From contig NZ_CP133548.1 of the NCBI RefSeq assembly GCF_031198435.1, positions 620,001 through 684,000 on the forward strand: 64,000 bases of DNA, given 5' to 3'. Every line of letters begins with the position of its first letter. Positions within the stretch are counted from its first letter, which is position 1. Positions 4,927-55,197 of this stretch are shown in pieces. This stretch comes from Pleionea litopenaei. GTDB taxonomy: Bacteria > Pseudomonadota > Gammaproteobacteria > Enterobacterales > Kangiellaceae. Under the pieces are notes generated by a model, which saw only the letters and a program-made list of their open reading frames with translations, was not told the DNA's origin and made no database searches. The translations under genes were made by a program, and so were the position numbers.

Positions 4927-5410
4927 AAATCTCTTCTCATGTGTTTAGGCCATAATCCGGGGTATTTTACTTAACAATTTTTCTAGTGTACATAAATTCA
5001 AGTTAGCCCAAATTTTAGGTTAGAAAATAAACAAATAAGAGCTAAAAACCGACTGAAGGGGTCTGATAGTTATCTATTTTATAAAAAATATAGAGTACAA
5101 ACTACTTTAGAAAAACTCTGTAAGACATTGATAAATCTCTATTTACATGCTTTCTTGAGTTTTTGTTTTATTAAGGCTGAAAAAGGTTACTAAGGTGTGA
5201 CCGGATAGTGTTTTAGGTAGCTCTGAGCCGTGAAGTTTACCTACCAAGGATTAAAACTTAGAGTCTAGATAAGTAGGTTTTGTTTGAATTTTGAACACTT
5301 CATTGAAATCATGCATGATTTTTATAGAGTGTTAACCGATTCTCGAAATCTATGCGAGCTCTACGGCACGTTAATCTCAATAGAAAATAAATGAGATTGT
5401 TTTATTAAGT
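4927..5410. other. Intergenic stretch without a recognised gene
   Basis: About 480 bp of AT-rich sequence between the yebC-like gene and the IS481 element. No open frame with a credible start, hairpin terminator or conserved RNA fold was recognised. It contains the upstream region of the yebC-like gene and the left target-site copy (ATTAAGT, 5404-5410) of the IS. Confidence 0.6.
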
Positions 5411-6616
5411 TGTACTAGCTCAGACTTAATCTGACAGTTACCCGTTTTTCAATTGGTGTCTGTCAGTTTAGATTTGAGCTAGATTTTTGTCAGCCCAAAT
5501 TCTCTTACCATCAATTAATGTTTCATTGGGCGTTCGTCCACAACACATTTTTCCTTGATGGGTGCGTTCATTATTGTAGTAAACTATCCATTCGTCCAGA
5601 TCCTTTTGAAGCTCATCCAGTGAACTGTATAATTTCTTCCGAAATGTAACCTGGTAGAACTCGTTCAATATCGTTTTATGGAATCGTTCGCAGATACCAT
5701 TGGTTTGCGGTGACATTGCTTTAGTCTTTGTATGCTCGATGTCATTGATTGCTAAATACAGCTGATAGTCGTGATGTTCAACTTTTCCACAATACTCAGT
5801 GCCGCGATCCGTTAATACTCGCAACATGGGTAACTCATGTTGCTGGAAGTAAGGTAGCACTTTGTCATTAAGTATGTCGGCTGCGGTAATAGGTGTTTTT
5901 GTGGTGTAGAGTTTGGCAAAGGCAACTTTGCTGTAAGTGTCGATGAAGGTTTGTTGGTAAATTCGTCCAACGCCCTTTAGGTTACCGACATAAAAGGTAT
6001 CTTGTGAGCCTAAGTAGCCAGGGTGAGCTGTTTCAATCTCACCACAGGCTTCATCATCATTTTTCTTCTTCTCAAGTGCAGCTATTTGGCTATCGGTCAG
6101 TATGATGCCCTCTTTAGCAACCTTATCTTCCAGTGCCTTCAAGCGCTTCTTAAAGTTTTCTAGGTCATGCCTGAGCCATATCGACCGGACACCGCTCCCT
6201 GATACAAAGACTCCTTTCTTTCGCAACTCGTTACTGGTTCGGTGTTGGCCGTGTGCCGGAAACTCAATGGCATAATTGATAACCGCTGTTTCTGTGGCTT
6301 CATCAACGCGATTTTTAACATTTGGGTTGCGACGGCTCTTGCTGATAAGGGCATCGATACCGCCTTCTTCGACCAGTTCTTGATAGCGATAAAATGTATC
6401 TCGTGATACGCCCATTACCTTACAGGCTTTCGATACGTTCCCGAGTTCTTCTGCTAAGTTAAGTAAACCAGCTTTGTGTTTTATGATTGGGTTGTTAGTA
6501 TGTAGCATGAGAGTTACCTCTATAACGTTCTGATTTAAAGATTCGACACCTTTAATCAAAACGGGTAACTCTCACTTTTTCAAGTTGATGTGTCAGATTA
6601 AGTCGAGACTAATTCA
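5411..6616 (-). mobile_element. Complete IS481-family insertion sequence with 7-bp target duplication
   Basis: A 1206-bp element bounded by imperfect inverted repeats: left TGTACTAGCTCAGACTTAAT, right (reverse complement) TGAATTAGTCTCGACTTAAT, both continuing CTGACA. ATTAAGT flanks it directly on both sides (5404-5410 and 6617-6623), the expected trace of transposition. The transposase inside is intact. The insertion falls between genes and leaves only 66 bp before the GTG of the following haem-protein gene, so it may affect that gene's promoter. A truncated second copy lies at 51869-52471. Confidence 0.9.
5468..6508 (-). CDS. IS481-family transposase
   Basis: 346-residue DDE transposase. 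It has an N-terminal helix-turn-helix (NVSKACKVMGVSRDTFYRYQ, about residues 22-41), a linker and an rve/DDE catalytic core with D in FIDTYSKVAFAKLY, D in VLTDRGTEYCG and E in NGICERFHKTILNEF. The family-typical start MLHTNNPIIKHK is at 6508. Upstream in-frame starts out to 6559 would cross the IS inner end and are less likely. The frame is uninterrupted, so the enzyme is probably active. It catalyses cut and joining of the IS ends. Confidence 0.92.
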   Translation of the reverse strand: MLHTNNPIIKHKAGLLNLAEELGNVSKACKVMGVSRDTFYRYQELVEEGGIDALISKSRRNPNVKNRVDEATETAVINYAIEFPAHGQHRTSNELRKKGVFVSGSGVRSIWLRHDLENFKKRLKALEDKVAKEGIILTDSQIAALEKKKNDDEACGEIETAHPGYLGSQDTFYVGNLKGVGRIYQQTFIDTYSKVAFAKLYTTKTPITAADILNDKVLPYFQQHELPMLRVLTDRGTEYCGKVEHHDYQLYLAINDIEHTKTKAMSPQTNGICERFHKTILNEFYQVTFRKKLYSSLDELQKDLDEWIVYYNNERTHQGKMCCGRTPNETLIDGKRIWADKNLAQI

Positions 6617-34121: not shown

Positions 34122-35426
34122 GACCCTGTAAATTATTCTGTGTAACTGCCAGTTCAAACATAGTCATCTAAGCGGCCATCAAATACAATCATAAAATGAT
34201 TTAAGGCCGCTTTCCAATTTCTAATAGGCATAGTCCATTTTTTCGAAGCGTCCATAATCGCTAGATAAACCACTTTTTTGGCGGAGTCATCTGATGGAAA
34301 GAGCTTTCGCTTCTTAATCGACTTTCGAATCACACTGTTGAGCGACTCAATGGCATTGGTCGTATAAATGGCTTTGCGTATTTCAGGCGGATAATTAAAT
34401 AACGTATTTAGATTGTGCCAATGAGTTTTCCAGGAGCGACTGATTTGCGGATACTTATCGTCCCAACGCTCAGAGAATTGCTCTAACGCAAGCAGCGCAT
34501 CTTCTTCAGTGGCTGACTGATAAATGCGCTTTAAATCCGCTGTCACGGCCTTGTAGTCTTTCCAGGGAACATAGCGAACGGAGTTTCGAATCATGTGCAC
34601 TATACAAAGCTGTACTTGCGTTTCGGGATAAGCCGAGTTGATAGCGTCAGGAAACCCTTTTAAACCGTCAACACAAGCAATGAGAATATCTTTAACTCCT
34701 CGATTTTGAAGCTCAGTTAAAACGTTGAGCCAGAATTTAGCCCCCTCGTTTTCTGATAACCACAAGCCTAAAAGCTCTTTTTGGCCTTCCATAGTGACGC
34801 CTAGCGCCAAGTAAACGCACTTGTTGATGACTTGTTTATCTTGCCGAATTTTTAGCACGATACAGTCCAGATAAACGATGGGGTAAATTGAATCTAGTGG
34901 GCGTGACTGCCATTCAATGACTTGCTCAATAACTGCATTGGTGACTTTTGAAATCAATGTGGGCGAGACGTCGGCATCATACATGTCTTTGAACGTGGCT
35001 ACGATTTCTCGAGTCGTCATCCCTTTGGCGTAAAGGCTCAGGATTTTCTCGTCCATCGTAGTGAAGCGAGTTTGCTGCTTCTTGACTAACTGGGGTTCGA
35101 ATGTGCCTTGCCGGTCTCGTGGCGTTTCAATTGAGAGTGGGCCATCTTCGGTAAGAAGCGTTTTCGGTGTATAGCCGTTCCGATAATTATCAGAATCTGA
35201 CTGAGCGTGTCTTTCATAGCCCAGATGCTCATCAAGCTCTGCATTCAAAGCGGTTTCGACAGTGACCTTCGTCAGCATCTGACGAAAGTCATTTAACTCT
35301 TCTTCAGTCTTTATGCCTTTGGCTGCTTTACGAGCCCAGGCTTCAACCTCTTTCTTGTCCATAGGTCTATCATCTCCTATTCAATAGGTTAATAATAGAC
35401 AGTTACACAGAGTTATTTACAGTCTC
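34122..35426 (-). mobile_element. IS256-family element, copy A, complete with 8-bp target duplication
   Basis: 1305 bp. Inverted repeats are left GACCCTGTAAATTATTCTGT and right (complement) GAGACTGTAAATAACTCTGT, both continuing GTAACTG. GTCGAAAA flanks both ends (34114-34121, 35427-35434). The transposase is intact. Copies B (39004-40087, decayed) and C (50564-51868, complete) are in the same orientation, so recombination between A and C would remove about 16 kb including the TIR and SIR2 modules. Confidence 0.92.
34154..35362 (-). CDS. IS256-family (mutator-type) transposase, copy A
   Basis: 402 residues, the normal family length. DDE residues are visible in [28 protein letters not shown] and [16 protein letters not shown]. 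The CxxH-type motif [16 protein letters not shown] lies between the second D and the E, as in mutator transposases. It is identical in deduced protein to copy C. The enzyme makes circular intermediates by copy-paste. Confidence 0.95.
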   Translation of the reverse strand: MDKKEVEAWARKAAKGIKTEEELNDFRQMLTKVTVETALNAELDEHLGYERHAQSDSDNYRNGYTPKTLLTEDGPLSIETPRDRQGTFEPQLVKKQQTRFTTMDEKILSLYAKGMTTREIVATFKDMYDADVSPTLISKVTNAVIEQVIEWQSRPLDSIYPIVYLDCIVLKIRQDKQVINKCVYLALGVTMEGQKELLGLWLSENEGAKFWLNVLTELQNRGVKDILIACVDGLKGFPDAINSAYPETQVQLCIVHMIRNSVRYVPWKDYKAVTADLKRIYQSATEEDALLALEQFSERWDDKYPQISRSWKTHWHNLNTLFNYPPEIRKAIYTTNAIESLNSVIRKSIKKRKLFPSDDSAKKVVYLAIMDASKKWTMPIRNWKAALNHFMIVFDGRLDDYV

Positions 35427-38893: not shown

Positions 38894-39003
38894 GCTATCC
38901 ATGTTGATAATTAAGATATTGTTGGTAAGTCCCCAAGAGGATGTTTTATTATAAATGGTAATGAGATAAGGCAAAATATAGGAACAGGAACGCTAGTATG
39001 GGT

Positions 39004-40023
39004 ACACTGTTGAGCGACTCAATGGCATTGGTCGTATAAATGGCTTTGCGTATTTCAGGCGGATAATTAAATAACGTATTTAGATTGTGCCAATGAGTTT
39101 TCCAGGAGCGACTGATTTGCGGATACTTATCGTCCCAACGCTCAGAGAATTGCTCTAACGCAAGCAGCGCATCTTCTTCAGTGGCTGACTGATAAATGCG
39201 CTTTAAATCCGCTGTCACGGCCTTGTAGTCTTTCCAGGGAACATAGCGAACGGAGTTTCGAATCATGTGCACTATACAAAGCTGTACTTGCGTTTCGGGA
39301 TAAGCCGAGTTGATAGCGTCAGGAAACCCTTTTAAACCGTCAACACAAGCAATGAGAATATCTTTAACTCCTCGATTTTGAAGCTCAGTTAAAACGTTGA
39401 GCCAGAATTTAGCCCCCTCGTTTTCTGATAACCACAAGCCTAAAAGCTCTTTTTGGCCTTCCATAGTGACGCCTAGCGCCAAGTAAACGCACTTGTTTAT
39501 CTTGCCGAATTTTTAGCACGATACAGTCCAGATAAACGATGGGGTAAATTGAATCTAGTGGGCGTGACTGCCATTCAATGACTTGCTCAATAACTGCATT
39601 GGTGACTTTTGAAATCAATGTGGGCGAGACGTCGGCATCATACATGTCTTTGAACGTGGCTACGATTTCTCGAGTCGTCATCCCTTTGGCGTAAAGGCTC
39701 AGGATTTTCTCGTCCATCGTAGTGAAGCGAGTTTGCTGCTTCTTGACTAACTGGGGTTCGAATGTGCCTTGCCGGTCTCGTGGCGTTTCAATTGAGAGTG
39801 GGCCATCTTCGGTAAGAAGCGTTTTCGGTGTATAGCCGTTCCGATAATTATCAGAATCTGACTGAGCGTGTCTTTCATAGCCCAGATGCTCATCAAGCTC
39901 TGCATTCAAAGCGGTTTCGACAGTGACCTTCGTCAGCATCTGACGAAAGTCATTTAACTCTTCTTCAGTCTTTATGCCTTTGGCTGCTTTACGAGCCCAG
40001 GCTTCAACCTCTTTCTTGTCCAT
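39004..40023 (-). pseudogene. Decayed IS256 transposase, copy B
   Basis: The frame starts at 40023 as in copy A, but an 11-nt deletion between two CTTGT repeats (at about 39497) shifts it after KIRQDKQV. The original frame resumes as [10 protein letters not shown], and the sequence is lost after [10 protein letters not shown]. All three catalytic residues are coded in the fragments. No functional enzyme can be made. Confidence 0.9.
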
Positions 40024-40886: not shown

Positions 40887-42521
40887 ATGAAATTGTCCGA
40901 TATGACTGAAAATATGACAAAGCTTGAGTCTTGGAAGGCGATTGCCAATTATGTCGATAAAAGTGTAAGAACGGTTAGGCGCTGGGAAGAACAAGAGGGC
41001 TTACCAATACATCGACAACTGCATCAAAGCGGCGCTAGAATATTCGCCTATCAACATGAAATCGATCAATGGTTAGTTAGTCGCACTAAAACTAATAGCG
41101 TCAGTGTGTTTGAGTCTAGCTCTACTCAACGCATTAAGCTTATTCTAATTCCGCTGAAATTAACCACAGACGATACTGAGTTATTATTTATACGCGATGC
41201 TATATGCGAAGATCTTATTGCTGACTTATCTACATTAAACTCACTTTCTGTGATTAGTTTTAGCTCTGTACAAAACATTGTTACGGATTCCACGCCTGAC
41301 CAAGACGCGCTGGCCTATATAAAACCCGACTTTCTAATTGAAGGAAGCTTAGCGATAACTAAAGAAGAGTATCGCATAAATCTTCGACTCGTTAGAACAG
41401 AAGACTCAAGTATTATTTGGTCCTCTCGAATATCTAGTTTAAAAGTCAATCTAAAAGAGCTTCAGCAAGCGCTTGCATATAACATTTTACGTGCATTAAA
41501 TATCAATACTGAAAATCTTGGCTTTAATGGTAGTTCTTCTTCCTGTATTGATAACCAAGCAGCATGGGAATTGCTACACAAAGCGCGGCAAGAATCATTA
41601 AAATGGCATCCACAAGCGATAGATTTCGCGATAGAACTTCTTCATGAGGCACTTCTGTTGACCAATAATGCCGGGCTTATAAAATCTTCACTAGGGAGAG
41701 TCTATCTACAAAAGCGAGAAGCGGGGATTGATGTAACCGAGTTGCCATTACAGAATGTAGAAAATATTATTAGAGAACTCGAAAAATCAGATCCTGACAC
41801 TTTCTTTACAGAGCAGCTAAAAGGTTGGTACAACTACGCAACAGGAAGTGTTTTTGATGGAATAAAACACTTAAGAAACTCTTTGGATGCTCGTCCTTTT
41901 GACCCTGACACACTTGGATTGCTGGCTAACTGTTACTTAATAACTGGCCAAAATGAACTTGCCCAGCCTTTAATACGTGAATTATTAATAATCGATCCAT
42001 TCACACCATTAAGTATTTGTTTACCAGGATGGGCTCATATTCTCCGAGGAGAGCACCCAAAGGCTCTTCCATATTATAAAAAAATGTTCGAGCTTGAACC
42101 ACAAAATCCACTTTCAAGACTCTTTTATGTTTGGGTATTGGTTCTTAATGGATTATCAAAAGATGCCTGCATAATATGCGATGGTTTTAATCAAGAACCT
42201 AGTAGTTTTTTTCCAATGCGTCTCGCTTGCGCCATTGCAAATGGAGCATCCAAGAAGGGCGATAGCCTCCTGATTTTAACCGAAGAAGAAAAGAAAGTTG
42301 CTCATTCCGTAGAAATGTATGCTCGTTTTACCGCCTTTGCTTTTGCAGCTCAGAATAACTTTAAAGAAGGAATCTATTGGCTGAATATTGCTGTAAAACT
42401 TGGATTTTGTGATTATAGGTTTTTAGTAAGTTTTGAAATATTCTTTAAAAATATACAGGATTTAGACGAGTTTAAGGAAGTTGTAAGCGTAATGAAGCAG
42501 CGTTTTTCGACTAAAACTTAA
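40887..42521 (+). CDS. HTH / TolB-like / TPR regulator
   Basis: 544 residues. The N-terminus is a MerR-like excisionase HTH (LESWKAIANYVDKSVRTVRR, WEEQEGLPIHR, about 12-60). A FlgO/TolB-N-like domain follows (about 85-205: LIPLKLTTDDTELLFIRDAI, IKPDFLIEGSLAIT, INLRLVRTEDSSIIWSSRI), then a TPR-like helical region to the end. This layout is common for one-component regulators related to CadC or adenylate-cyclase-type sensors, here without a TM helix. It probably regulates itself and its neighbours through the phased repeats upstream. The TIR-TPR gene starts 34 bp downstream, so co-transcription is likely. Confidence 0.72.
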   Translation: MKLSDMTENMTKLESWKAIANYVDKSVRTVRRWEEQEGLPIHRQLHQSGARIFAYQHEIDQWLVSRTKTNSVSVFESSSTQRIKLILIPLKLTTDDTELLFIRDAICEDLIADLSTLNSLSVISFSSVQNIVTDSTPDQDALAYIKPDFLIEGSLAITKEEYRINLRLVRTEDSSIIWSSRISSLKVNLKELQQALAYNILRALNINTENLGFNGSSSSCIDNQAAWELLHKARQESLKWHPQAIDFAIELLHEALLLTNNAGLIKSSLGRVYLQKREAGIDVTELPLQNVENIIRELEKSDPDTFFTEQLKGWYNYATGSVFDGIKHLRNSLDARPFDPDTLGLLANCYLITGQNELAQPLIRELLIIDPFTPLSICLPGWAHILRGEHPKALPYYKKMFELEPQNPLSRLFYVWVLVLNGLSKDACIICDGFNQEPSSFFPMRLACAIANGASKKGDSLLILTEEEKKVAHSVEMYARFTAFAFAAQNNFKEGIYWLNIAVKLGFCDYRFLVSFEIFFKNIQDLDEFKEVVSVMKQRFSTKT

Positions 42522-42555: not shown

Positions 42556-45267
42556 ATGGAATGCAAAAACATGTCAAAGGATTCGACGCAATACCACGCA
42601 TTTATATCCTACCGTCATACTGACAATGTAGAACAAGGTCGTCAATGGGCCTCATGGCTTCATCAGGCAATCGAAACCTATGAAGTCCCTCAAGAACTTG
42701 TTGGACAAAAGAATGCTTTTGGAGAGACCATTGCTGAGCAGATATATCCTGTGTTTAGAGATGAGCAGGAGTTATCTGCAGACGCTGATCTAGCGACCGC
42801 TATAAAAGATGCGCTCGAGCGGTCCCGTGTTCTAATTGTCCTTTGCTCACCCAATTCGTGTGAGTCGAAGTACGTTGCAGATGAGATCGAATACTTTAAG
42901 CGGCTTGGACGTTCGAATCGTATATTGGCAGTAATTATTGATGGAGAGCCTAATGCTAGTTGGGATGAACGCAAGCAATCTCAAGGGTTTCACGCTAAAG
43001 AAGAGTGTTTTCCTCTACCACTTCAATTTGTCTACAACGATTATGGAATACGCACCAACGAAAGGTCTGAGCCTATCGCTGCAGATTTTCGGCTAACTGA
43101 CTCAGGAAATAATAAGGTACAAGGTTGGACATCGCCACAAGCCTATCGAGTCGAGCTTGAGCAAAACTCAAAGCTAAGCAAAAAGGAAATAGCTAAAGAA
43201 GTTCAACAGTATGAACAGCAGCACCGCGATATGTTGCTTAAAATTATTGCTGGAATCTTAGGTGTCTCTTTTGATCAGCTAAATCGCAGAGACAAGTCTT
43301 ATCAATTACAGCTTGAAAGGAAAAAGGCCCAGCGTTTACGTCGTTGGCTCTCAGCGGTAACAGTATTGGCTATTGTCGCGGTAGGGACCGGTGTATTGGC
43401 TTTTTATCAGCAACAAGTAGCGGTAGAGCAGCGTGATAAAGCTGAGGCCTTGTTAGGGGAAGTTCGAGAAAACCTGGAATTTATGAACTACGACTTACGC
43501 GATGTCCTCATGCGATATGCACCGACGAAAGAACGTGTAAAAGTGATGAAGAGGATAGATGCGCTTAGCGATGTATTGCTATCCCAAGCGGAATCACTAA
43601 CGCCCGATGATAAATTAGCTCTAATCGTCGTGTTATTACAAAAATCAGATGTCATTCTTAAAAGCCAAAATCAAAACCCTGAGGAGTCTTTACCTCTAAC
43701 ATTGAAGGCGCTCGATCTTAATAAACAATTGTTTAAAGAATTCCCCGACAATAAGCGGTACTTGAGCCAACTATCGATCACTTATGAAGCTTTAGGTTTA
43801 GCAAAGGAAATTTTGGGTGATACGCAAGCTGCTAAATTTAACTATTTATCCAGCTTAAGGATACTTAACAACCTTTTAAAGGAAGAACCAAAGAATGCGC
43901 GTCACTTGAAGAGCATATCTATTACCTACGAACACATAGGAGAGGTTGATTCGTTACTTGGAAGTACAGACAGCGCATTACGTAATTTTAAAAAGAGCTT
44001 AGAAGCGCGAAAGCTTATAACTCAGTTAAAGCCGGAGAACTCAGAGTATCAGAGATTACTGTCGGTTTCATTTGAAAAAATAGCCGATATCAAAAAGCTA
44101 ATTGGTGAGCTAAATGCAGCTTTAGAATTGTACCAACAAGGCTTAGATATTCGACATTCCTTAGCAGAGCAAGATCCAGATAATTTGGCACTTAAATTTA
44201 GTGTGTCTATCGCTCACTCAAAACTTGCTAGTGTTTATTCGCTATTGGGAAAAACTTCTGAGGCGTTCGGTCATTTAAATAAAAGCAAAGATATTCGCCA
44301 GTTTCTAGTTAACCAAGATTCAACCAATACGGAGTTTCTTCGCTATTACTCCATAGCCATTGAACAGCTAGGGCAGTTTGAATTAGACAGAGGTAATGTC
44401 GCAGTTGCTCATAGCGCATTTAAAGACAGTCTAAATCAGGTCCTAACGCTCGTAAAACTCGCCCCCAATAACACAACCTACCAACGCGATCACTTGGTCG
44501 CTAATATTAAGCTAGCCAATAGTTTAATCCGTAATGGTAACGATGATGAGGCGTTTCAGCTCTATCAAGAATCATTAAAGATTGCCAAGTTGCTAGTTGA
44601 ACGCGACGCTTCCAATATAGCTTTCTTGGACGATTTATCCAGTACACATAGTAGAATGGGTAATATTTATGTGATGCGAGAGCAATACAATCTCGCGATG
44701 GAGCACTATCAAAAAGCTCTAGACATTAACCAACAAATTGCCAATGGAGATATGAGTAACTCGAAATATCAACGAGGTCTTTTTGTGGCAAATTTGAAGA
44801 TTGGAAATGTTCTGTTAAAAACTGGGAAGGGGCGTCAGTCATTGCGTTATTATCAATCTGCACTTTCTATTGCACAACAACTTGAGTTAAAAGATAAAAG
44901 TAATATCGAATCAAAGAACGACCTTTCCATTGCGCTTTCAAAGTTAGGCGATGCGTATATGTTTATTAAGGACTATTCATCAGCATTAGGTATTTATCAA
45001 AAATGCCTACAAGTTGACAAGGAAGTTGTCGCTTTGGATGGGAGTATCACTAAGTATCGTCTTAGTTTGGCAATAACTTATTGGAGGCTTTATGACGTTT
45101 ATCGAGAGACTAAGGATATTGATAGAGCGATTTCTATGTTAAAGAAGGCCAAGGAAGAGCTCATTATTGTAGACAGCATGGGAGGCCTATCAATTAAAGA
45201 AAGGCCATTTATTTATAAGGCCAAAGAAATTATTGAAGAACATGAGAGTAAGAATAAAAGTGGCTAA
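42556..45267 (+). CDS. TIR-TM-TPR protein
   Basis: 903 residues. The TIR domain (about 12-135) has YHAFISYRHTDN, PVFRDEQELSADADL, VLIVLCSPNSCESKYVADE with the NADase-type Glu (about E110), and ILAVIIDGEPNAS. A linker leads to one TM helix (about 265-285), then about 600 residues of TPR-like repeats, with motifs such as ALELYQQGLDIRHSLAEQDP. The cytosolic TIR and TPR parts would lie on opposite sides of the membrane. Bacterial TIR enzymes cleave NAD+ or make signalling nucleotides. This one could be a defence or stress effector. The start is 42556, with ATG 42571 an equal alternative. Confidence 0.85.
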   Translation: MECKNMSKDSTQYHAFISYRHTDNVEQGRQWASWLHQAIETYEVPQELVGQKNAFGETIAEQIYPVFRDEQELSADADLATAIKDALERSRVLIVLCSPNSCESKYVADEIEYFKRLGRSNRILAVIIDGEPNASWDERKQSQGFHAKEECFPLPLQFVYNDYGIRTNERSEPIAADFRLTDSGNNKVQGWTSPQAYRVELEQNSKLSKKEIAKEVQQYEQQHRDMLLKIIAGILGVSFDQLNRRDKSYQLQLERKKAQRLRRWLSAVTVLAIVAVGTGVLAFYQQQVAVEQRDKAEALLGEVRENLEFMNYDLRDVLMRYAPTKERVKVMKRIDALSDVLLSQAESLTPDDKLALIVVLLQKSDVILKSQNQNPEESLPLTLKALDLNKQLFKEFPDNKRYLSQLSITYEALGLAKEILGDTQAAKFNYLSSLRILNNLLKEEPKNARHLKSISITYEHIGEVDSLLGSTDSALRNFKKSLEARKLITQLKPENSEYQRLLSVSFEKIADIKKLIGELNAALELYQQGLDIRHSLAEQDPDNLALKFSVSIAHSKLASVYSLLGKTSEAFGHLNKSKDIRQFLVNQDSTNTEFLRYYSIAIEQLGQFELDRGNVAVAHSAFKDSLNQVLTLVKLAPNNTTYQRDHLVANIKLANSLIRNGNDDEAFQLYQESLKIAKLLVERDASNIAFLDDLSSTHSRMGNIYVMREQYNLAMEHYQKALDINQQIANGDMSNSKYQRGLFVANLKIGNVLLKTGKGRQSLRYYQSALSIAQQLELKDKSNIESKNDLSIALSKLGDAYMFIKDYSSALGIYQKCLQVDKEVVALDGSITKYRLSLAITYWRLYDVYRETKDIDRAISMLKKAKEELIIVDSMGGLSIKERPFIYKAKEIIEEHESKNKSG

Positions 45268-45303: not shown

Positions 45304-46152
45304 GTGCACACCTCAGAATTGACTCAAAATGGATTAATTATTGGACTATCGCATCATTATCGTTCAAATATTGAGCTATTATTATCTTTCAAATGTTCCA
45401 ATATAAAGACGTGTAATGGTCAATCTAAGCGAAAAGACGGCAAATATTTTTTAACGAATGTTGAGCCCGGCGGTCTTTTTCAAGGAAAACCGCAGCGAAA
45501 CCTCCGCTTTCCGATCCAGCATGTGCATATCGATTTCGATCGCATGATGGCCAAACGGCCACAATTGCTCGCGACAATTGATGAGATGCCGAGCTATCTA
45601 CTCAAGCCTGAGGTGTTCCGACTGCTCAGCCGCGAGACTGATCCCATGTACCGGCTGATCCTCGATCTGATGTGGTCCACCGGTGCCCGCGTATCCGAAG
45701 CCCTCGCTTTAACGCCAGCGAGCTTTATCCACGATGGCTATGATTTGCAGGTGGTGTTATCCATACTCAAGCGGCGCGGCCGACCGAAAAAGACTGCCGT
45801 GATCCGATCACCCAAACGCTACATTCCGATCTGGGATCCTGTGCTGCAGTCGCGCATTCGCGAGTATCTCTTTGCGCGAAGGTTAAACCAAACCGATCGG
45901 CTCTTTCCGATCTGCCGCCAGACGGTAAACCGCCATATTAAGAGGCTTGTAGAAGAGGGCGGGGGCGCGCCGTTTCGCATCTCCAGTCATACTCTTCGGC
46001 ACAGCTTTGCAATACACTTGATTTTACATGGACGACCGTTAAAGTATGTCAGTCAGCTGTTGGGGCATCGCTCGATTGAGAGCACGGAAATTTATACCAA
46101 AGTGTTAACCAATGACGGTGCGCATTTTATGGAAGGGGTGGAGTTTCATTAA
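45304..46152 (+). CDS. ResD-like plasmid tyrosine recombinase
   Basis: 282-codon frame. From about residue 60 on it matches the family of plasmid resolvases like F-plasmid ResD: LMWSTGARVSEALAL (Arg I), SHTLRHSFAIHL (HxxR), LGHRSIESTEIYTKV (His/Trp position and Tyr nucleophile). The GC content visibly rises from about position 45430 to 46150 compared with the AT-rich surroundings. The first about 45 codons are AT-rich and unlike the family, and no better start is in frame, so the N-terminus may be a junction with older sequence. Such recombinases resolve plasmid multimers. Its presence suggests captured plasmid DNA. Confidence 0.75.
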   Translation: MHTSELTQNGLIIGLSHHYRSNIELLLSFKCSNIKTCNGQSKRKDGKYFLTNVEPGGLFQGKPQRNLRFPIQHVHIDFDRMMAKRPQLLATIDEMPSYLLKPEVFRLLSRETDPMYRLILDLMWSTGARVSEALALTPASFIHDGYDLQVVLSILKRRGRPKKTAVIRSPKRYIPIWDPVLQSRIREYLFARRLNQTDRLFPICRQTVNRHIKRLVEEGGGAPFRISSHTLRHSFAIHLILHGRPLKYVSQLLGHRSIESTEIYTKVLTNDGAHFMEGVEFH

Positions 46153-46487: not shown

Positions 46488-46640
46488 AACTCTCTATAGG
46501 AGAGAGCAAAGTATTTACCCTAACAGAGCTCGATGCAAAGGCTTTAGGCGTTTTTCAGCAGGTTAGTTTGGCTGCAGTCTGCTAAAAGAGGAGTCTCAAA
46601 CTTGATTTGCACATTAAACTAACAGAAATGGTCATAAAAA

Positions 46641-47570
46641 ATGGAAAGAGTTCCTCCTTTACGAGAAATTTTTGATCCTCCTGACGAAATAGTCCAAGCA
46701 GCCTTGAATGGTGATCTCGTTTTTTTTGTAGGTGCAGGTGCATCTAGGCTTCTTGGTTTACCATCTTGGACAGAGTTAGCTACAAAAGCTCTTGATGACT
46801 TACGAAAGAATGACCATTTAAATTACTCAGAAATTGAGCAGCTAAAAGGCTTGGATGCCAAGAAGCAATTGTCAATTGCATACTCAATTGCTGAAGATAA
46901 CAAGTATCATTTAGACCTTACTAAGCATCTTGTCGGTAAAACTGAAGGAGATTGTATTTATAAAGCCATTAATGATATCGGCTGTTCTTGCGTAACAACA
47001 AACTACGACGAACTATTGGCACCTCGTTTCGTAGACTCAAAAGATGGTTCTGCAACAGCAGCACCAGTAAACCGAGTATATGACAGAGAGAAGTTTTTCG
47101 CGAAACTGTTAAATGAGCCTGGTACAGTCGTACATTTACATGGTGCAATTAGTCAACCTAAAGGAATGATAGTTACGACTAAGGACTATCTCGAGCATTA
47201 CGATCATGAAAATGTCAAAGAGTTTCTCGGAGAACTATTTGCAAAAAAGACTATCTTATTTCTTGGATACGGTCTGGAAGAAGCAGAAATATTAGAGCAT
47301 ATATTAAGAAGGGGATCTGTAACGCAGACTCATGATAGAAGGCGCTTTGCATTACAGGGTTTTTTTCTGAGTCAGAAACCACTATATGATAATCTTCATA
47401 CTTATTATAAGAAGTCATTTGGTGTACACCTGCTAGGCTTTGTCCGCGATCATGAAGATTACAAACGCCTTGAGGCAATAATAAAATCCTGGGGAAGCCA
47501 GATTGTAGTAAGAAAGCCACCATTAGCTGTTGATAATGATTTTATGGATGAGGTTCTTGCTAGTGAGTGA
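46641..47570 (+). CDS. SIR2-family (NADase-like) protein
   Basis: 309 residues forming a SIR2-like domain. It has the nucleotide-binding GAGAS (31-35), TTNYD (119-123), HLHG (165-168, catalytic-type His167) and GYGLEE (209-214). It lacks the CxxC zinc pair of deacetylase sirtuins, as defence-type SIR2 proteins do. Known relatives (ThsA of Thoeris, DSR1/DSR2, SIR2-HerA, SIR2-APAZ) destroy NAD+ on phage detection and kill or arrest the host. Its stop overlaps the start of the next gene by 8 nt, so the two are translated together. The start ATG 46641 has no strong ribosome site. Confidence 0.88.
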   Translation: MERVPPLREIFDPPDEIVQAALNGDLVFFVGAGASRLLGLPSWTELATKALDDLRKNDHLNYSEIEQLKGLDAKKQLSIAYSIAEDNKYHLDLTKHLVGKTEGDCIYKAINDIGCSCVTTNYDELLAPRFVDSKDGSATAAPVNRVYDREKFFAKLLNEPGTVVHLHGAISQPKGMIVTTKDYLEHYDHENVKEFLGELFAKKTILFLGYGLEEAEILEHILRRGSVTQTHDRRRFALQGFFLSQKPLYDNLHTYYKKSFGVHLLGFVRDHEDYKRLEAIIKSWGSQIVVRKPPLAVDNDFMDEVLASE

Positions 47571-50394
47571 ATTATCGGCAAAAGAGCTAGATTTAATGCA
47601 ACGCATTGAAGAGAAGGTTGAGTTACGCCCTCTATTTTTCCGTAAAGTAAAGGGCTTAAAATGGTTCGACCCTCTCGCGGAACGGGGCTACTTTAGCCCA
47701 GAAGCAAACCCAAAACCTGTGCCGGCTAAAGAAGAGGGGTATGTTAATATACCATCTTGGCCCGTTGTTGATTATCTTGTGAAGACAGCCCCAGAACTTG
47801 CTGATAAGAAAAATCTAGAATATGTAGAAAAGTATCTTCATGTTCTTGTAAATGTTACAACCTACGCTAAGAAGAATAAAGTAAGCAATTACCATACTTG
47901 GTGGCAATTTGCTGAAATAATCTCGCTAATACCACATAACTCAATTCCAATCGAAAGTATAGATATTGTCGATTACTGGTTAGACGACAAATATGAATGT
48001 GGACTTGTTGCACAGGTCGTTGGAGCTAAGTGGTTGCCAAAACTGCTGCAAATAAATGACGACCATGCTTTAAAGCTAGCAAATAAAATTATCGAGTTTC
48101 TATATAAAGTTATATTTATCGAGCGTGAACACGAGGAGAAAGGCAAGCTGGATGCCTCATTCAGATTCGACTATTATCACGCTAAAGAAATTACGGAGCG
48201 AACAGCTAAGCTAGCAGGTGAAAAACTAGGTTTAGATGCCATCAAGATATTTGATGCCTTCTTATCAAATATACTAGTTCAACTTAATAGTGATTTATGG
48301 TCATCTCTCTGGCAACCTGCTATCGAAGACCATGAGCAAAATAAGTACCGAGATGATGCAAAAAATATTTTGATCAAGGCGTATCGTGATTCGATGGATG
48401 GTTACATTCATACCACCCCTAATGAAGCCTCAAAATATGTTAAAAGCATGCTTGCGTCTGAATATCAAACTATTCAAAGGATAGCGATTTACATAATCGG
48501 TAGAAATTATCACTTATTTACGGATGTTGTCGACCAACTACTGGATGTAAAATATTTGGATAGTAACTATCAACATGAAATGTGGCATTTTTTAAACAAG
48601 TGCTATCCGAATTTTACAGATTCCAATAAAGAAAAAGTTCTGGAATTGATATACGGGATAGCGAGTTATGATGATGAGGGTGAACTCCATGCGGGTGCAT
48701 CAGCCTACAATAAAGCCATTTGGCTTTCAGCTATAAAAGAGTATGGTGAGAGGGAAGCGAACCTCTATTTTGAAAGTACAAAAATAGCGAAAACAGAACC
48801 AGAGCATCCTGATTTTTCGAGTTATATGTCAGTAGGATGGAGTGGGCGGAAATCACCTAAGACCATAGAAGAGTTGCAAGCACTATCATTTGATGAACTT
48901 GTTCAGGAATTGAAGAATTACAAAGATTCAGATGCGTTTAACGATCACGGTTTAGAAGAACTAGCAAAGGTCTTTAAGCAGCTAGTTAAAAATGAGCCAC
49001 TTAAGTATTATCTAAATTTAAATAAATTCATTTATCTTGATTTCGCATATATTTACGAGCTTATTGAAGCTTATAGGAATTTATGGGAAGACAAGAGTAA
49101 ATTTCCATGGGATGAAATATGGGAAAAGCTACTGGAATTCTGCTCGAATGTTATCGAACAAGACCGATTTTGGGACCCTGAGAATGCAAAACAGAGAGAG
49201 TCATTTGTTGCTAACCGACATTGGATAATAAGTAGTATAGGGCGATTTATAGAGGCAGGTACAAAAACAGATCAACATGCATTCGATGAGAAACATTTAT
49301 CAGACGCAGAAAAGATACTTACATACCTATTAGAGCGAGTGAAAGGTAGCGAATATAAAGTTGATAGTGACGCTGTCTCGATTTCTATTAATAGTCCTCG
49401 TGGGCATTGTTTAAATGCGCTAATTAATTTGACGTTACGTTCATGCAGGATTTCAGATAAAAAGAACAATAATGATCACTCTATGGTTTGGTCGAAATTT
49501 GCGCGTTATTACGATTCAGAGCTGGGCCGTTCAGATTTAACAGAACCTGAATACGAATTTGCCACACTGGTAACGAACTATTTGCCTAATTTCTTATATA
49601 TGTCAAAACCATGGGTGCTTGAAAATCTCAACAGAATATTTGATCAGAACAATTATTTAAAATGGTTATGTGCTATGCAGGGATATGCTTATGTTGGGAC
49701 GATATATCAGGAGATTTATGGGTATCTAAGAATGCACGGAGATCTATTAAAAGCTCTTGATGATGACAATATTAGAAACAGAATAAAAGAGAAGGCTATT
49801 CAAAATATTGCTGTTGCCTATATAAATAACTTTGAGTCTTTTGAGGAAACAAATAGCCTCATCAATACATTAATTGAAAGGAACAACCATGAAGAGATAA
49901 ACCATTTAATATGGTTTATTGGAAGTTTCAGGAAGAAAGGCGATGATAATTTAAAGAATAAAGTTTATGAGTTGTGGCCAAAAATTCTAGAAAATATCGA
50001 TCTATCGACAAGGCATGGGCGAAGGATGGCCTCAAAACTATGCGACTGGACAGTATTTGTCGATCAGATAGACGAAGATATACGACGGCTACTCCTTACA
50101 ATAGCACCATACTCTGATGAGTCGCATAATTCGTATACAATATTAGAAAGTATTTCGGAAATTAGTGAAACGCAACCATTCGAAGCCTTTGAAATTTGGA
50201 TGAAGATTTTAGAAGGCTCCACACCAGATTATCCAGAAGAAGCAATTAGAAGTATATTTACTAATTTACTTAAGAAAGGCTCTGAAGGCTTGAGAAAAGC
50301 TAGACAAGCAGAAAGCGAGTATCTTAAGAATGGCAATGTTAGACCTTCTCTCTGGTTAAGAGAAATCAGGCAAGAAATGTTGTCAATAGATTAA
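47563..50394 (+). CDS. Large helical partner of the SIR2 protein, function unknown
   Basis: 943 residues, almost wholly alpha-helical by composition, with irregular 30-40-residue helical units as in HEAT/ARM-type scaffolds. No P-loop, helicase motif, nuclease motif or TM helix was found. Marked segments are YVNIPSWPVVDYLVKTAPEL near residue 60, ALSFDELVQELKNYKDSDAF near the middle and INSPRGHCLNALINLTLRSC in the C-terminal half. The start is GTG 47563 with GAGG 9 nt ahead, overlapping the SIR2 stop (GTGAGTGA). The gene pair looks like a split form of single-chain SIR2 defence proteins, with this subunit as the likely sensor or regulator. That role is inference from gene order. Confidence 0.75.
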   Translation: MSELSAKELDLMQRIEEKVELRPLFFRKVKGLKWFDPLAERGYFSPEANPKPVPAKEEGYVNIPSWPVVDYLVKTAPELADKKNLEYVEKYLHVLVNVTTYAKKNKVSNYHTWWQFAEIISLIPHNSIPIESIDIVDYWLDDKYECGLVAQVVGAKWLPKLLQINDDHALKLANKIIEFLYKVIFIEREHEEKGKLDASFRFDYYHAKEITERTAKLAGEKLGLDAIKIFDAFLSNILVQLNSDLWSSLWQPAIEDHEQNKYRDDAKNILIKAYRDSMDGYIHTTPNEASKYVKSMLASEYQTIQRIAIYIIGRNYHLFTDVVDQLLDVKYLDSNYQHEMWHFLNKCYPNFTDSNKEKVLELIYGIASYDDEGELHAGASAYNKAIWLSAIKEYGEREANLYFESTKIAKTEPEHPDFSSYMSVGWSGRKSPKTIEELQALSFDELVQELKNYKDSDAFNDHGLEELAKVFKQLVKNEPLKYYLNLNKFIYLDFAYIYELIEAYRNLWEDKSKFPWDEIWEKLLEFCSNVIEQDRFWDPENAKQRESFVANRHWIISSIGRFIEAGTKTDQHAFDEKHLSDAEKILTYLLERVKGSEYKVDSDAVSISINSPRGHCLNALINLTLRSCRISDKKNNNDHSMVWSKFARYYDSELGRSDLTEPEYEFATLVTNYLPNFLYMSKPWVLENLNRIFDQNNYLKWLCAMQGYAYVGTIYQEIYGYLRMHGDLLKALDDDNIRNRIKEKAIQNIAVAYINNFESFEETNSLINTLIERNNHEEINHLIWFIGSFRKKGDDNLKNKVYELWPKILENIDLSTRHGRRMASKLCDWTVFVDQIDEDIRRLLLTIAPYSDESHNSYTILESISEISETQPFEAFEIWMKILEGSTPDYPEEAIRSIFTNLLKKGSEGLRKARQAESEYLKNGNVRPSLWLREIRQEMLSID

Positions 50395-50563
50395 AACTAA
50401 AGAAAGACCTCTTTCGGGGATAATCTGATATTGAGAAAAAATCAAGACGCTGAATAACTAAGTGTTTCTAAGGAAAATTATTCGCTTTCGATTACAGCTT
50501 AAACTACATTATCCGTGATATGGGGCTTCAACTATAAAGTGGATTAGTCTGAACTCAGACAAA

Positions 50564-51868
50564 GACCCTGTAAATTATTCTGTGTAACTGCCAGTTCAAA
50601 CATAGTCATCTAAGCGGCCATCAAATACAATCATAAAATGATTTAAGGCCGCTTTCCAATTTCTAATAGGCATAGTCCATTTTTTCGAAGCGTCCATAAT
50701 CGCTAGATAAACCACTTTTTTGGCGGAGTCATCTGATGGAAAGAGCTTTCGCTTCTTAATCGACTTTCGAATCACACTGTTGAGCGACTCAATGGCATTG
50801 GTCGTATAAATGGCTTTGCGTATTTCAGGCGGATAATTAAATAACGTATTTAGATTGTGCCAATGAGTTTTCCAGGAGCGACTGATTTGCGGATACTTAT
50901 CGTCCCAACGCTCAGAGAATTGCTCTAACGCAAGCAGCGCATCTTCTTCAGTGGCTGACTGATAAATGCGCTTTAAATCCGCTGTCACGGCCTTGTAGTC
51001 TTTCCAGGGAACATAGCGAACGGAGTTTCGAATCATGTGCACTATACAAAGCTGTACTTGCGTTTCGGGATAAGCCGAGTTGATAGCGTCAGGAAACCCT
51101 TTTAAACCGTCAACACAAGCAATGAGAATATCTTTAACTCCTCGATTTTGAAGCTCAGTTAAAACGTTGAGCCAGAATTTAGCCCCCTCGTTTTCTGATA
51201 ACCACAAGCCTAAAAGCTCTTTTTGGCCTTCCATAGTGACGCCTAGCGCCAAGTAAACGCACTTGTTGATGACTTGTTTATCTTGCCGAATTTTTAGCAC
51301 GATACAGTCCAGATAAACGATGGGGTAAATTGAATCTAGTGGGCGTGACTGCCATTCAATGACTTGCTCAATAACTGCATTGGTGACTTTTGAAATCAAT
51401 GTGGGCGAGACGTCGGCATCATACATGTCTTTGAACGTGGCTACGATTTCTCGAGTCGTCATCCCTTTGGCGTAAAGGCTCAGGATTTTCTCGTCCATCG
51501 TAGTGAAGCGAGTTTGCTGCTTCTTGACTAACTGGGGTTCGAATGTGCCTTGCCGGTCTCGTGGCGTTTCAATTGAGAGTGGGCCATCTTCGGTAAGAAG
51601 CGTTTTCGGTGTATAGCCGTTCCGATAATTATCAGAATCTGACTGAGCGTGTCTTTCATAGCCCAGATGCTCATCAAGCTCTGCATTCAAAGCGGTTTCG
51701 ACAGTGACCTTCGTCAGCATCTGACGAAAGTCATTTAACTCTTCTTCAGTCTTTATGCCTTTGGCTGCTTTACGAGCCCAGGCTTCAACCTCTTTCTTGT
51801 CCATAGGTCTATCATCTCCTATTCAATAGGTTAATAATAGACAGTTACACAGAGTTATTTACAGTCTC
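50564..51868 (-). mobile_element. IS256-family element, copy C, complete, without target duplication
   Basis: 1305 bp with the same ends as copy A. The left flank ends CAGACAAA, while the right flank TTAGGCTC is the interior of a truncated IS481 copy, so no target duplication exists. This implies a deletion or recombination at its right end. The transposase is intact. Confidence 0.92.
50596..51804 (-). CDS. IS256-family transposase, copy C
   Basis: 402 residues, same deduced protein as copy A, with D, D, E in [15 protein letters not shown] and TNAIESLN. Being intact in two places, either gene can drive movement of all three elements with intact ends. It stands 200 bp beyond the end of the SIR2 module. 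Confidence 0.95.
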   Translation of the reverse strand: MDKKEVEAWARKAAKGIKTEEELNDFRQMLTKVTVETALNAELDEHLGYERHAQSDSDNYRNGYTPKTLLTEDGPLSIETPRDRQGTFEPQLVKKQQTRFTTMDEKILSLYAKGMTTREIVATFKDMYDADVSPTLISKVTNAVIEQVIEWQSRPLDSIYPIVYLDCIVLKIRQDKQVINKCVYLALGVTMEGQKELLGLWLSENEGAKFWLNVLTELQNRGVKDILIACVDGLKGFPDAINSAYPETQVQLCIVHMIRNSVRYVPWKDYKAVTADLKRIYQSATEEDALLALEQFSERWDDKYPQISRSWKTHWHNLNTLFNYPPEIRKAIYTTNAIESLNSVIRKSIKKRKLFPSDDSAKKVVYLAIMDASKKWTMPIRNWKAALNHFMIVFDGRLDDYV

Positions 51869-52570: not shown

Positions 52571-53026
52571 TTACCCTAGTTTTCTCAGAGCATCCCCAAT
52601 TTCTTCCTCGGGTGGTTCTTCGTAGATAAGCGTAGTTGAAGGGTTTACATGACCAGCAATCTTTTGAGCGACCTTTACCGATCTCTTCTGTTTGTGTATC
52701 ACATCGGTAATCACGGTTCGGCGACCACTGTGCGAGCTTGCTTTTTCTATACCAGCCCAGTAACGAAGCATCAAAGCCATATGCTCTTGAAGTGTATTTG
52801 GAGAATACGGTCCACCTTTCTGAGTGATAAAAAGAGGTGAGGAAGGGGAGAGAGAATGCTCCTTCTCCAATCGAAAAGTCAAATATTCCTCGAGTGCTTT
52901 TCGAAGCTCAACATCCACCAAAGGTAAGTCTCGTGACTTTCCTTTGTGCTTTTTAACGTCCGGATAGAACTCTTTCGGATCGATTTCCGCACCAGCTTTA
53001 GCCAATTTCTCTATCTGGCGCACCAA
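52571..53026 (-). pseudogene. C-terminal remnant of a tyrosine integrase
   Basis: About 151 codons matching the C-terminal catalytic half of a site-specific recombinase: KKHKGKSRDLPL, SSHSGRRTVITDVIHK (HxxR), QKIAGHVNPSTTLIYEE (His and Tyr nucleophile). The N-terminal half with the first Arg is missing, and a stop lies about 9 codons upstream of the first TTG. The break is about 30-60 bp from the tnpT stop, where the metal-resistance transposon could have its left end. Not functional. Confidence 0.75.
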
Positions 53027-53103
53027 TTTGAGGGTTGGCCGGGATTACGATCAAATGCAGCCACTTCGCTTGTAACTGATTGAATTACAGTTCTTTTTTA
53101 TCT

Positions 53104-54090
53104 TCAGGATTTGCCGGATTTAGCCGAATCCTTTAACAAGCGAAGCTCTGTTTCCAGTTTAGTATTTTCAAGCTCTAAATCACGGATCTTTTTGGATTCC
53201 AATACGAGCTTTTGATCTAACGTAGTCCTTAATTTCGCAGTCTCAGCTTTTTCATTTTCAGTACGTTCCAGTTTTAACAGTGTTTGATTCAGTTCTTGCT
53301 TTAGATTATCTGTTATTTTGCAGAGTTCTTTTACCTTGTCTTCAAGCTTGTGATTATCCTTTTGTACGGCTCTTAATTCGGTGACTAATCGACTGTTATC
53401 TTTATTAAGTTGAGTAATGTCGGTTTGTTTTATCACTAACGTTTGATTTAGCTGACGCAGTTCACTTTGAAGTTGTTGGATCTGCTGTTCGTGTTGACGT
53501 TGCTCCTGTTCCCTCTGCACTTTCACCGACTCCCGATAGTGTACCAAGCTGTCCCGCGCATGTTGGTGATTGTCTTTTAAAGTGACTATTTGACTGTCTT
53601 TTTCTGCAAGGACAGCTTGTAATTTTTGAGTTTCAGATTGTTCATTCAGGAGCTTTGATTCTACTTCTGTAGCGTGTTCTTTCGACTTGGTGATTTCGCT
53701 CTTTAGTATTTCAATTTCACTTTTCGCGGACTCAAGTTTCTGCGATTTAACTTTCTCAGTTTCCATTAACTCTCGATTTGAAACCTTGAGTTCGTCTACG
53801 GTCGCTTTGTGTGTCGATTCTGACTGCTTAACAATGTCATGGGCTTCCTGGTGCAACTTGGCCGCGAGTTTTGCGATCAGCTCTTTGATGCCACTACTGA
53901 GCAGAGCTTCATCATCGAGTCGTACACTATCTTCTGATTCAATATCTTTCAGATACCTGGATATGGTGGTCTTCGAACCTGTATTACCCAGCTCTACTCG
54001 TATGGCATCTATGGATGGGTTAAGCCCTTTACTCATAAGGGTTTGACGAGCTTTCTCAACATCATGTTTTGTTATACCAGAACGTGCCAT
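53104..54090 (-). CDS. tnpT: TnpT-like coiled-coil DNA-binding protein
   Basis: 328 residues. The N-terminal KfrA-type DNA-binding domain (GITKHDVEKARQTLMSKGLN, TGSKTTISRYLKDIE, about 5-55) is followed by a very long coiled coil (about 70-325) rich in Gln, Glu and Leu. In Tn4651-type Tn3 transposons TnpT is the accessory protein that, with the tyrosine recombinase TnpS, resolves cointegrates at the site between them. Here it is divergent from tnpS across 189 bp, the expected arrangement. ATG 54090 has AGAGG ahead. A KfrA-like plasmid protein is the alternative, but the neighbour argues for TnpT. Confidence 0.8.
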   Translation of the reverse strand: MARSGITKHDVEKARQTLMSKGLNPSIDAIRVELGNTGSKTTISRYLKDIESEDSVRLDDEALLSSGIKELIAKLAAKLHQEAHDIVKQSESTHKATVDELKVSNRELMETEKVKSQKLESAKSEIEILKSEITKSKEHATEVESKLLNEQSETQKLQAVLAEKDSQIVTLKDNHQHARDSLVHYRESVKVQREQEQRQHEQQIQQLQSELRQLNQTLVIKQTDITQLNKDNSRLVTELRAVQKDNHKLEDKVKELCKITDNLKQELNQTLLKLERTENEKAETAKLRTTLDQKLVLESKKIRDLELENTKLETELRLLKDSAKSGKS

Positions 54091-54279
54091 AGGAGCCTCT
54101 GTGATTATTTGATACTGTAATACGTAATATGTATATCCATACTATATTCGCATTGTTTGATGTACAAAGACAACATAAATCTGACATTGAATAATAGATA
54201 ATTATCACATGTTAGGTAGATATTTGGGTATAATCGAAACCAAATTGGTACGAAAAGCGGATTTACTCAGGACATTTAA
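54091..54279. promoter_or_regulatory. Candidate resolution site (rst) and divergent promoters
   Basis: 189 bp between divergent tnpT and tnpS. It contains short imperfect inverted repeats (GTTTGATGTACAAAGAC around 54156-54172, ACCAAATTGGT around 54239-54249) of the size expected for a tyrosine-recombinase core. In Tn4651 the recombination core lies in this gap. The exact core here cannot be fixed by eye. Confidence 0.5.
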
Positions 54280-55197
54280 ATGGCCGGCACCAACAACATT
54301 AATAAGTACATTAGCGCAGCGACCCGAGAGAACACGCGCCGCAGTTATCAAAGTGCGATCGAGCATTTCGAAGTGACTTGGGGCGGACTTTTACCAACAA
54401 CCGCAAACGGATTGGCTGATTATCTAGCGCATTATGCCGAATCGCTAAGCTATAACACACTCAAACAACGAACTGTGGCCATCGGCCAGTGGCACCAAGA
54501 TCAGGGACTTCCTGATCCGAGCAAGACTCCGTTGGTCAAAAAGGTACTCAAAGGGATTCGTGAGCTGCACCCAACACAATCAAAGCAAGCTCGTCCGCTA
54601 CACCTGGAAGCGTTGGAGCAAGTCATCGCGCATTTAGAAAGTCACATTTCAGCTGACCCAAAAGATTTATTGAGAGCCTATCGAGACAGGGCTTTATTGC
54701 TAATTGGTTTTTGGAGAGGATTTCGTAGCGATGAACTCTGTCGTTTACACTTTGAAAATATTGAAACTGCGAATCACGGGATGAAACTCTTTCTGCCGCG
54801 TTCGAAAGGTGACCGGCACACACTAGGTCGATATTATTTTACACCAGCCTTACAGAAGCTTTGTCCGGTAAATGCCTTCGAAGACTGGAGGCAAGTTTCT
54901 GGTTTGAGCAAAGGGCCTATCTTTGTGGGAGTGACTCGTTGGGGAAGTTTAAAGCAAGATGCACTACATCCTAACAGTGTGATACCAATCATCCGCAAAG
55001 CTTTCAAGGACGCACAGTTATTAGAGCCAGAATCTTACTCATCACATTCATTAAGACGTGGTTTTGCTTCTTGGGCTGCATCTAACGACTGGAACACAAA
55101 AGAACTTATGGAATATGTAGGTTGGAAAGACCTAAAGTCAGCAATGCGTTACATTGAAAGCAATGCAAGTTCGAACTTATTTTTAAGTGCGTCGTAA
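54280..55197 (+). CDS. tnpS: TnpS-like tyrosine recombinase
   Basis: 305 residues: an N-terminal SAM-like core-binding domain (about 5-90: ENTRRSYQSAIEHFEVTW) and a catalytic domain with Arg in FWRGFRSDELCRL, HxxR as HSLRRGFA, Trp in YVGWKDLKS (replacing the usual His) and Tyr in MRYIESN. It resembles TnpS, the cointegrate resolvase of Tn4651/Tn5041-like transposons. ATG 54280 has AGGA about 8 nt ahead. It precedes the metal-efflux passenger genes, which are on the opposite strand. Confidence 0.82.
   Translation: MAGTNNINKYISAATRENTRRSYQSAIEHFEVTWGGLLPTTANGLADYLAHYAESLSYNTLKQRTVAIGQWHQDQGLPDPSKTPLVKKVLKGIRELHPTQSKQARPLHLEALEQVIAHLESHISADPKDLLRAYRDRALLLIGFWRGFRSDELCRLHFENIETANHGMKLFLPRSKGDRHTLGRYYFTPALQKLCPVNAFEDWRQVSGLSKGPIFVGVTRWGSLKQDALHPNSVIPIIRKAFKDAQLLEPESYSSHSLRRGFASWAASNDWNTKELMEYVGWKDLKSAMRYIESNASSNLFLSAS

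Follow-up and report, generated by a model that had tools for sequence, protein, structure and literature searches.

A two-gene SIR2 and helical-protein module in Pleionea litopenaei resembling a split DSR1

Two overlapping genes and their conserved split

A pair of overlapping genes occupies positions 46641 to 50394 of a 64,000-nucleotide (nt) stretch of Pleionea litopenaei DNA (contig NZ_CP133548.1, positions 620,001 to 684,000 of the forward strand), which we refer to here as the window. The upstream gene (gene 1) encodes a SIR2 protein and the downstream gene (gene 2) a much larger, helical protein. Here we describe the two genes and their relatives, and compare them with DSR1 and other SIR2-based defence systems.

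Gene 1 (46641..47570, plus strand) starts with ATG and encodes 309 amino acids (aa); it is a lone SIR2_2-domain protein and a predicted NADase effector. The Pfam SIR2_2 family matches at E 2.3e-18, no other Pfam domain matches at E 1 or better, and all four motifs named in the original prediction—GAGAS, TTNYD, HLHG, and GYG—are present. It is the sole SIR2_2 match in the genome. Residues N121, Y122, D123, and H167 are intact, are unchanged in all five copies of the pair described below, and align to the catalytic N, Y, D, and H of DSR2, whose catalytic pocket is given as N133, Y134, D135, and H171 (PMC11263360). When the gene 1 model was searched with Foldseek, the SIR2 domain of DSR2 was the top match and ThsA was nearly tied; the model is weak, with a mean predicted local distance difference test score (pLDDT) of 53.

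Gene 2 (47563..50394, plus strand) starts with GTG and encodes 943 aa, forming a predicted sensor of helical, HEAT-like character. Its frame remains open upstream of the GTG, where a TTG at 47530 would give a protein of 954 aa. This partner had been described as all-helical and free of P-loop and transmembrane (TM) motifs, and the pattern and hydropathy scans agree: the P-loop pattern was not found, and there is no TM-like segment (highest 19-residue hydropathy 1.21). No Pfam family exceeded its cut-off, and a sequence comparison with solved structures gave nothing significant (one chance-level row, E 0.7). The predicted structure is almost all helix, at low confidence (mean pLDDT 62.6, predicted template modelling score 0.40, three-row alignment).

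The genes overlap by 8 nt (GTGAGTGA, 47563..47570, plus strand), just as first noted, with gene 2 in the +1 frame relative to gene 1. Read directly, the sequence also holds a Shine-Dalgarno-like GAGG at 47550..47553 on the plus strand, within gene 1 and 9 nt 5' of the gene 2 GTG.

Conservation of the pair across genomes, a check proposed with the original prediction, was found: there are five pairs in all, with the same split—those of the window, Dasania, Sneathiella, G1422 (a genome of Sneathiella's class), and a Vibrio coralliilyticus plasmid. Identity to the window copy is 85% (Dasania), 63% (G1422), 56% (Sneathiella), and 51% (Vibrio) for gene 1, and 82%, 45%, 43%, and 38%, respectively, for gene 2; gene 2 diverges faster, and both proteins rank the relatives alike. 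Every pair is broken at the SIR2/helical border, with the same frame difference and overlaps of 8, 8, 8, 8, and 14 nt. A GAGG precedes the gene 2 start in four copies and an AGGA in the Vibrio copy. The ratio of nonsynonymous to synonymous substitution (dN/dS, NG86, window versus Dasania copy) is 0.21 for gene 1 and 0.23 for gene 2, which indicates purifying selection on both genes. The two-gene split is real and old.

Relation to DSR1 and to haloarchaeal NTPases

A single defence profile covers both genes. The PADLOC Dsr1 model PDLC04166, 1227 positions long, matches gene 1 over its positions 8-286 (186 bits) and gene 2 over 308-1213 (487 bits)—collinear, non-overlapping stretches—and the same two-piece pattern is seen in Dasania, Sneathiella, the Vibrio plasmid, and G1422. 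The Sneathiella SIR2 match extends beyond the stop of its gene. The length of the model implies that single-chain members of its branch exist.

For comparison we used single-chain DSR1 proteins from the same order, where the NCBIfam Dsr1 equivalog NF041818 matched 5 of 295 genomes at E 1e-20, one of them over the cut-off. Three complete chains were taken—L024 (1257 aa, the one over the cut-off), L027 (1269 aa), and L031 (1258 aa)—all of which match the other two PADLOC Dsr1 models; short frames from G264 (402 aa) and G044 (about 390 aa) were omitted from the profile. On contig 22 of G264, at 4373-5515 (L025, L029), adjoining matches to DSR1 1-153 and 1033-1262 lie in 402-aa frames, a pattern that would fit loss of the central part of a DSR1 gene.

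Profile comparison relates gene 1 to the SIR2 part of this set at E 3.5e-12. The five gene 2 proteins match the three single-chain DSR1 proteins in hhalign at 90.5% probability and E 1.4e-6 over 414 collinear columns (gene 2 225-695 on DSR1 585-1041); the reversed profile and eight column-shuffled versions gave E 0.099 or worse. In a SIR2 tree of 15 rows, the split group forms one clade with 100/100 support. Because PDLC04166 spans both genes and gene 2 is profile-related to the DSR1 helical half, the pair looks like a split, two-gene relative of DSR1.

Several observations weigh against this kinship. The curated NF041818 model gives gene 1 25.9 bits against a cut-off of 1400 and does not match gene 2 at all, and the window's genome has no NF041818 match at E 1e-20. 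The other two PADLOC Dsr1 models match the pair weakly and on gene 1 alone, which scores 32 and 19 bits there, less than on LmuA (53), ThsA (53), or PDC-S25 (47); ThsA is also its best solved-structure match by sequence, with DSR2 just behind. PDLC04166 itself matches one of the three single-chain DSR1 proteins, and there by the SIR2 part alone, and a single-chain member of its branch was not found in the genomes and plasmids searched. The hhalign match to DSR1 is limited to the middle of gene 2, and the branch leading to the split clade is long (2.25), its placement beside DSR1 being weakly supported (69/72). Finally, the structure models are poor (mean pLDDT 53 for gene 1 and 63 for gene 2), and DSR2 is absent among the 50 fold matches listed for gene 2, which are generic solenoids.

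The original prediction held that no known architecture fits the pair; that claim is not supported, since PDLC04166 covers both genes collinearly and gene 2 is related by profile to the helical half of DSR1. The assignment to a named system is nevertheless partial: the PADLOC Dsr1 model matches, but the NF041818 equivalog does not recognize the pair, and the genes are two.

Relatives of gene 2 were also found outside SIR2 systems. A tblastn search with gene 2 matched a 1510-aa Natronorubrum plasmid protein (E 1e-8), and the helical half of that protein, used in turn as the query, matched 10 plasmid records, every one haloarchaeal. We compared five of these proteins (L005, L038, L039, L040, and L041; genera Natronorubrum, Haladaptatus, Haloferax, Halapricum, and Halocatena), the Natronorubrum one and four from the other nine records. 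All five carry a P-loop pattern, and three have TM-like stretches near the N-terminus; the NTPase heads show weak Avs4 or PDC-M54A likeness in four of the five, with no SIR2 match listed. PDLC04166 matches the C-terminal half of each (64 to 135 bits). In hhalign the gene 2 profile aligns nearly end to end with the five proteins (12-933 on 574-1496, E 3.2e-30), and single-chain DSR1 aligns with them at E 9.2e-9; reversed controls gave E 0.39 and 0.59. With the Natronorubrum sequence alone, gene 2 still matches (E 3.3e-12) and DSR1 does not (E 0.11).

By these matches, the whole of gene 2 corresponds to a unit that occurs in three settings: in one chain with SIR2, as a protein separate from it, and joined to a P-loop NTPase. 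The matches to the C-terminal halves of the five P-loop NTPases from haloarchaeal plasmids make gene 2 look like a portable sensor module. A wider proposal, which we make tentatively and rate a little short of an even chance, is that the gene 2 family, of about 940 residues, is a portable sensor set on differing heads; it would act in trans, as the existence of a free-standing form suggests, and DSR-type and Avs- or STAND-like systems would share their sensing part. If so, a single sensor could in principle work with two or more effectors. It is possible that the haloarchaeal proteins, which join an NTPase to a DSR1-type helical half, are undescribed Avs-like defence proteins.

Set beside known systems, the pair shares with DSR1 a SIR2_2 domain followed by a helical half. 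It differs in being encoded by two genes in all five pairs, whereas the three DSR1 proteins examined are one chain, and in falling far below the curated Dsr1 cut-off; DSR1 is counted among single-gene systems in one report (PMC10973363). Bacillus subtilis DSR2 has the same catalytic residues, but is again a single chain; its helical half is of the HEAT type, to which gene 2 may be similar. SIR2-HerA (Nezha) likewise consists of two genes, and its SIR2 enzyme is described as needing its partner (PMC11559045); that partner is a HerA ATPase, whereas gene 2 has no ATPase family or P-loop. ThsA of Thoeris has a related SIR2 domain. The Thoeris SIR2 protein bears a C-terminal SLOG-type ligand domain, whereas gene 1 has no further domain, and no conserved TIR partner was seen: of the two loci looked at, the window has a TIR gene upstream and the Vibrio locus has none annotated. 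The pair also lacks the NTPase module of SIR2-STAND and Avs systems, although a P-loop is present in the haloarchaeal relatives of gene 2.

Distribution and genomic setting

The pair looks rare in the sampled genomes, where counts include the window's own genome if it was drawn and genomes overlap between samples. Query A1 matched 1 of 394 genomes at the level of the order and 1 of 369 at the level of the class, in both cases the window's own. PDLC04166 matched 2 of 398 genomes of the phylum (the window's genome and G016, the latter by SIR2 only, which by eye is joined to an NTPase-like stretch), 2 of 385 genomes of Sneathiella's class (Sneathiella itself and G1422), 2 of 23 genomes in another sample (G1422 and G1473, the latter by SIR2 only), and all three known carriers; a further sample of 78 genomes gave none, which shows no absence. 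Genome contigs searched with patterns built from window gene 2 alone, which reach close relatives only, gave four matching stretches, two of which encode a relative (Dasania and Sneathiella). Among plasmids, gene 2 matched two records (Vibrio and Natronorubrum), and Vibrio gene 2 matched itself only. No relative was found among viral contigs with queries A1, A2, the Vibrio protein, A7, and A6, none of either protein among phages, and none at the DNA level among E. coli genomes. At L036 1480-2367 we observed a SIR2 gene lying, by eye, between DUF262-type and GHKL-ATPase-type genes, possibly another SIR2 system.

The DNA common to the window and the Dasania copy (locus L002, blastn) spans 46547..50490 on the plus strand at 86.4% identity; it comprises the pair and about 95 nt on each side, and the rest of the fetched 14.8-kb locus has no match at E 1e-5. 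These limits indicate that the pair moves as a unit. On the Vibrio coralliilyticus plasmid, the split pair adjoins a SIR2-HerA pair identified by PADLOC (L004 2229-5242, minus strand, 1.8 kb away; SIR2 E 1.1e-49, HerA E 1e-180). The G1422 copy has, by eye, ordinary transport and metabolic genes as neighbours, and by Pfam one LysR regulator, so a mobile context is not shown by every copy.

In the window, the mobile neighbours mentioned in the original prediction are indeed there. A tyrosine recombinase gene lies just upstream, outside the module (45304..46152, plus strand; Pfam Phage_integrase E 5e-23), and a Mutator-family transposase gene just downstream (50596..51804, minus strand; Pfam Transposase_mut E 6.2e-120), which we take to be IS256-type. 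By eye, the same transposase occurs three times, at 34154-35362, 38949-40023, and 50596-51804; two copies are of 402 aa and one is broken. Pfam also identifies a KfrA_N protein (53104-54090) and a second tyrosine recombinase (54280-55197), and the stretch 52571-55197, with the KfrA_N gene flanked by two tyrosine recombinase genes, has the form of a plasmid-like integration module. Further upstream, a 903-aa protein at 42556-45267 carries a TIR domain and many TPR repeats, joined via what is by eye a hydrophobic stretch; it is possibly a separate sensor or defence gene. Another TPR protein gene precedes it on the same strand (40887-42521).

Proposed mechanism, alternatives, and significance

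We consider it probable that the pair acts against phages as a mobile two-gene module, in which a defence-associated sirtuin of the DSR1 type is divided at the enzyme/sensor border. The sequences show the two genes and their conserved pairing, the catalytic residues, the gene 2 start with its Shine-Dalgarno-like site, and the kinship of both halves to DSR1; complex formation, sensing, NADase activity, phage defence, and translational coupling we infer by analogy with DSR2. Gene 1 would be a SIR2 NAD+ hydrolase, and gene 2 a long helical solenoid that would keep it inactive within a complex. Gene 2 would recognize a phage product, and binding would switch on gene 1; NAD+ would then fall and phage growth would stop. 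The 8-nt overlap and the internal ribosome site may couple translation of the two genes.

The division of labour, in which gene 2 would sense and gene 1 execute, is modelled on DSR2: there binding of a phage tail tube protein to the helical C-terminal part is followed by NAD+ hydrolysis in the SIR2 part (PMC10973363). In that report, where a SIR2-only protein was assayed as well, NAD+ was degraded only by full-length wild-type DSR2 together with the tail tube protein. The original prediction of a two-gene SIR2 system whose large helical partner is the likely sensor is supported, whereas the switching on of NAD+ hydrolysis is a prediction.

Other readings share part of this evidence. An ordinary SIR2_2 enzyme and a widespread helical sensor module may have been joined independently of DSR1, to work in much the same way; we regard this as possible, if on the doubtful side. 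In its favour, the pair's SIR2 domain resembles LmuA or ThsA at least as much as it does the two canonical PADLOC DSR1 models, the tree places the split group beside DSR1 with the weak 69/72 support, and the helical module matches the haloarchaeal NTPases (E 3.2e-30, five rows) more strongly than DSR1 (E 1.4e-6, three rows). Against it, a Dsr1 profile whose length implies single chains covers both halves in order, and the tree does place the split group next to DSR1, if weakly. The pair could instead resemble a toxin-antitoxin system, with gene 1 an active NADase and gene 2 a dedicated inhibitor that is lost or displaced on infection, which we find clearly unlikely. Two separate, overlapping genes for a small enzyme and a bulky partner would suit such an arrangement, but antitoxins are usually small. 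The helical half of DSR2, moreover, is an activator-binding sensor, and SIR2-only DSR2 did not degrade NAD+ (PMC10973363).

The form of the split bears on the remaining alternatives. Programmed +1 frameshifting would join the two frames into one DSR1-like chain of about 1250 aa, and the five pairs do share one relative frame; the stretch open in both frames is 44 nt in the window and Dasania copies and 29 nt in G1422. In Sneathiella and Vibrio, however, a stop in the gene 2 frame lies just 5' of the gene 2 start, and the 11 and 8 nt shared there leave almost no room for a frameshift-fused product; no common slippery sequence is seen by eye, and all five copies have a start codon with GAGG or AGGA, making such fusion very improbable. 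A DSR1 gene broken by recent frameshift or assembly error might also give one profile collinear over two pieces, but this explanation is ruled out by the conservation of the split in all five pairs, from separate assemblies and down to 38% identity, and the low dN/dS of both genes speaks against it as well. We also find it very improbable that the pair works in a Thoeris-like circuit with the TIR-TPR protein (42556-45267), even though the gene for that protein lies on the same strand and ends 1.4 kb upstream: gene 1 has no Pfam domain beyond SIR2_2, a recombinase gene lies in between, the Dasania-shared DNA begins only at 46547, and the Vibrio annotation has no TIR gene nearby.

A two-gene DSR arrangement was not recognized among the matches listed in the open-licence literature. 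The parts of the proposed split DSR1-type module are known; their arrangement, which was not seen among those matches, would make it a variant of the DSR1 kind. Defence finders that seek one long Dsr1 protein may, we expect, overlook or mislabel such pairs. Because DSR1 and DSR2 carry enzyme and sensor on a single chain, either one has to be cut out before it can be examined by itself; a natural split would offer both as intact proteins, making inhibition versus activation, the binding ratio, and sensor exchange directly testable. The module shared with archaeal NTPases, in turn, suggests which part of DSR1 senses.

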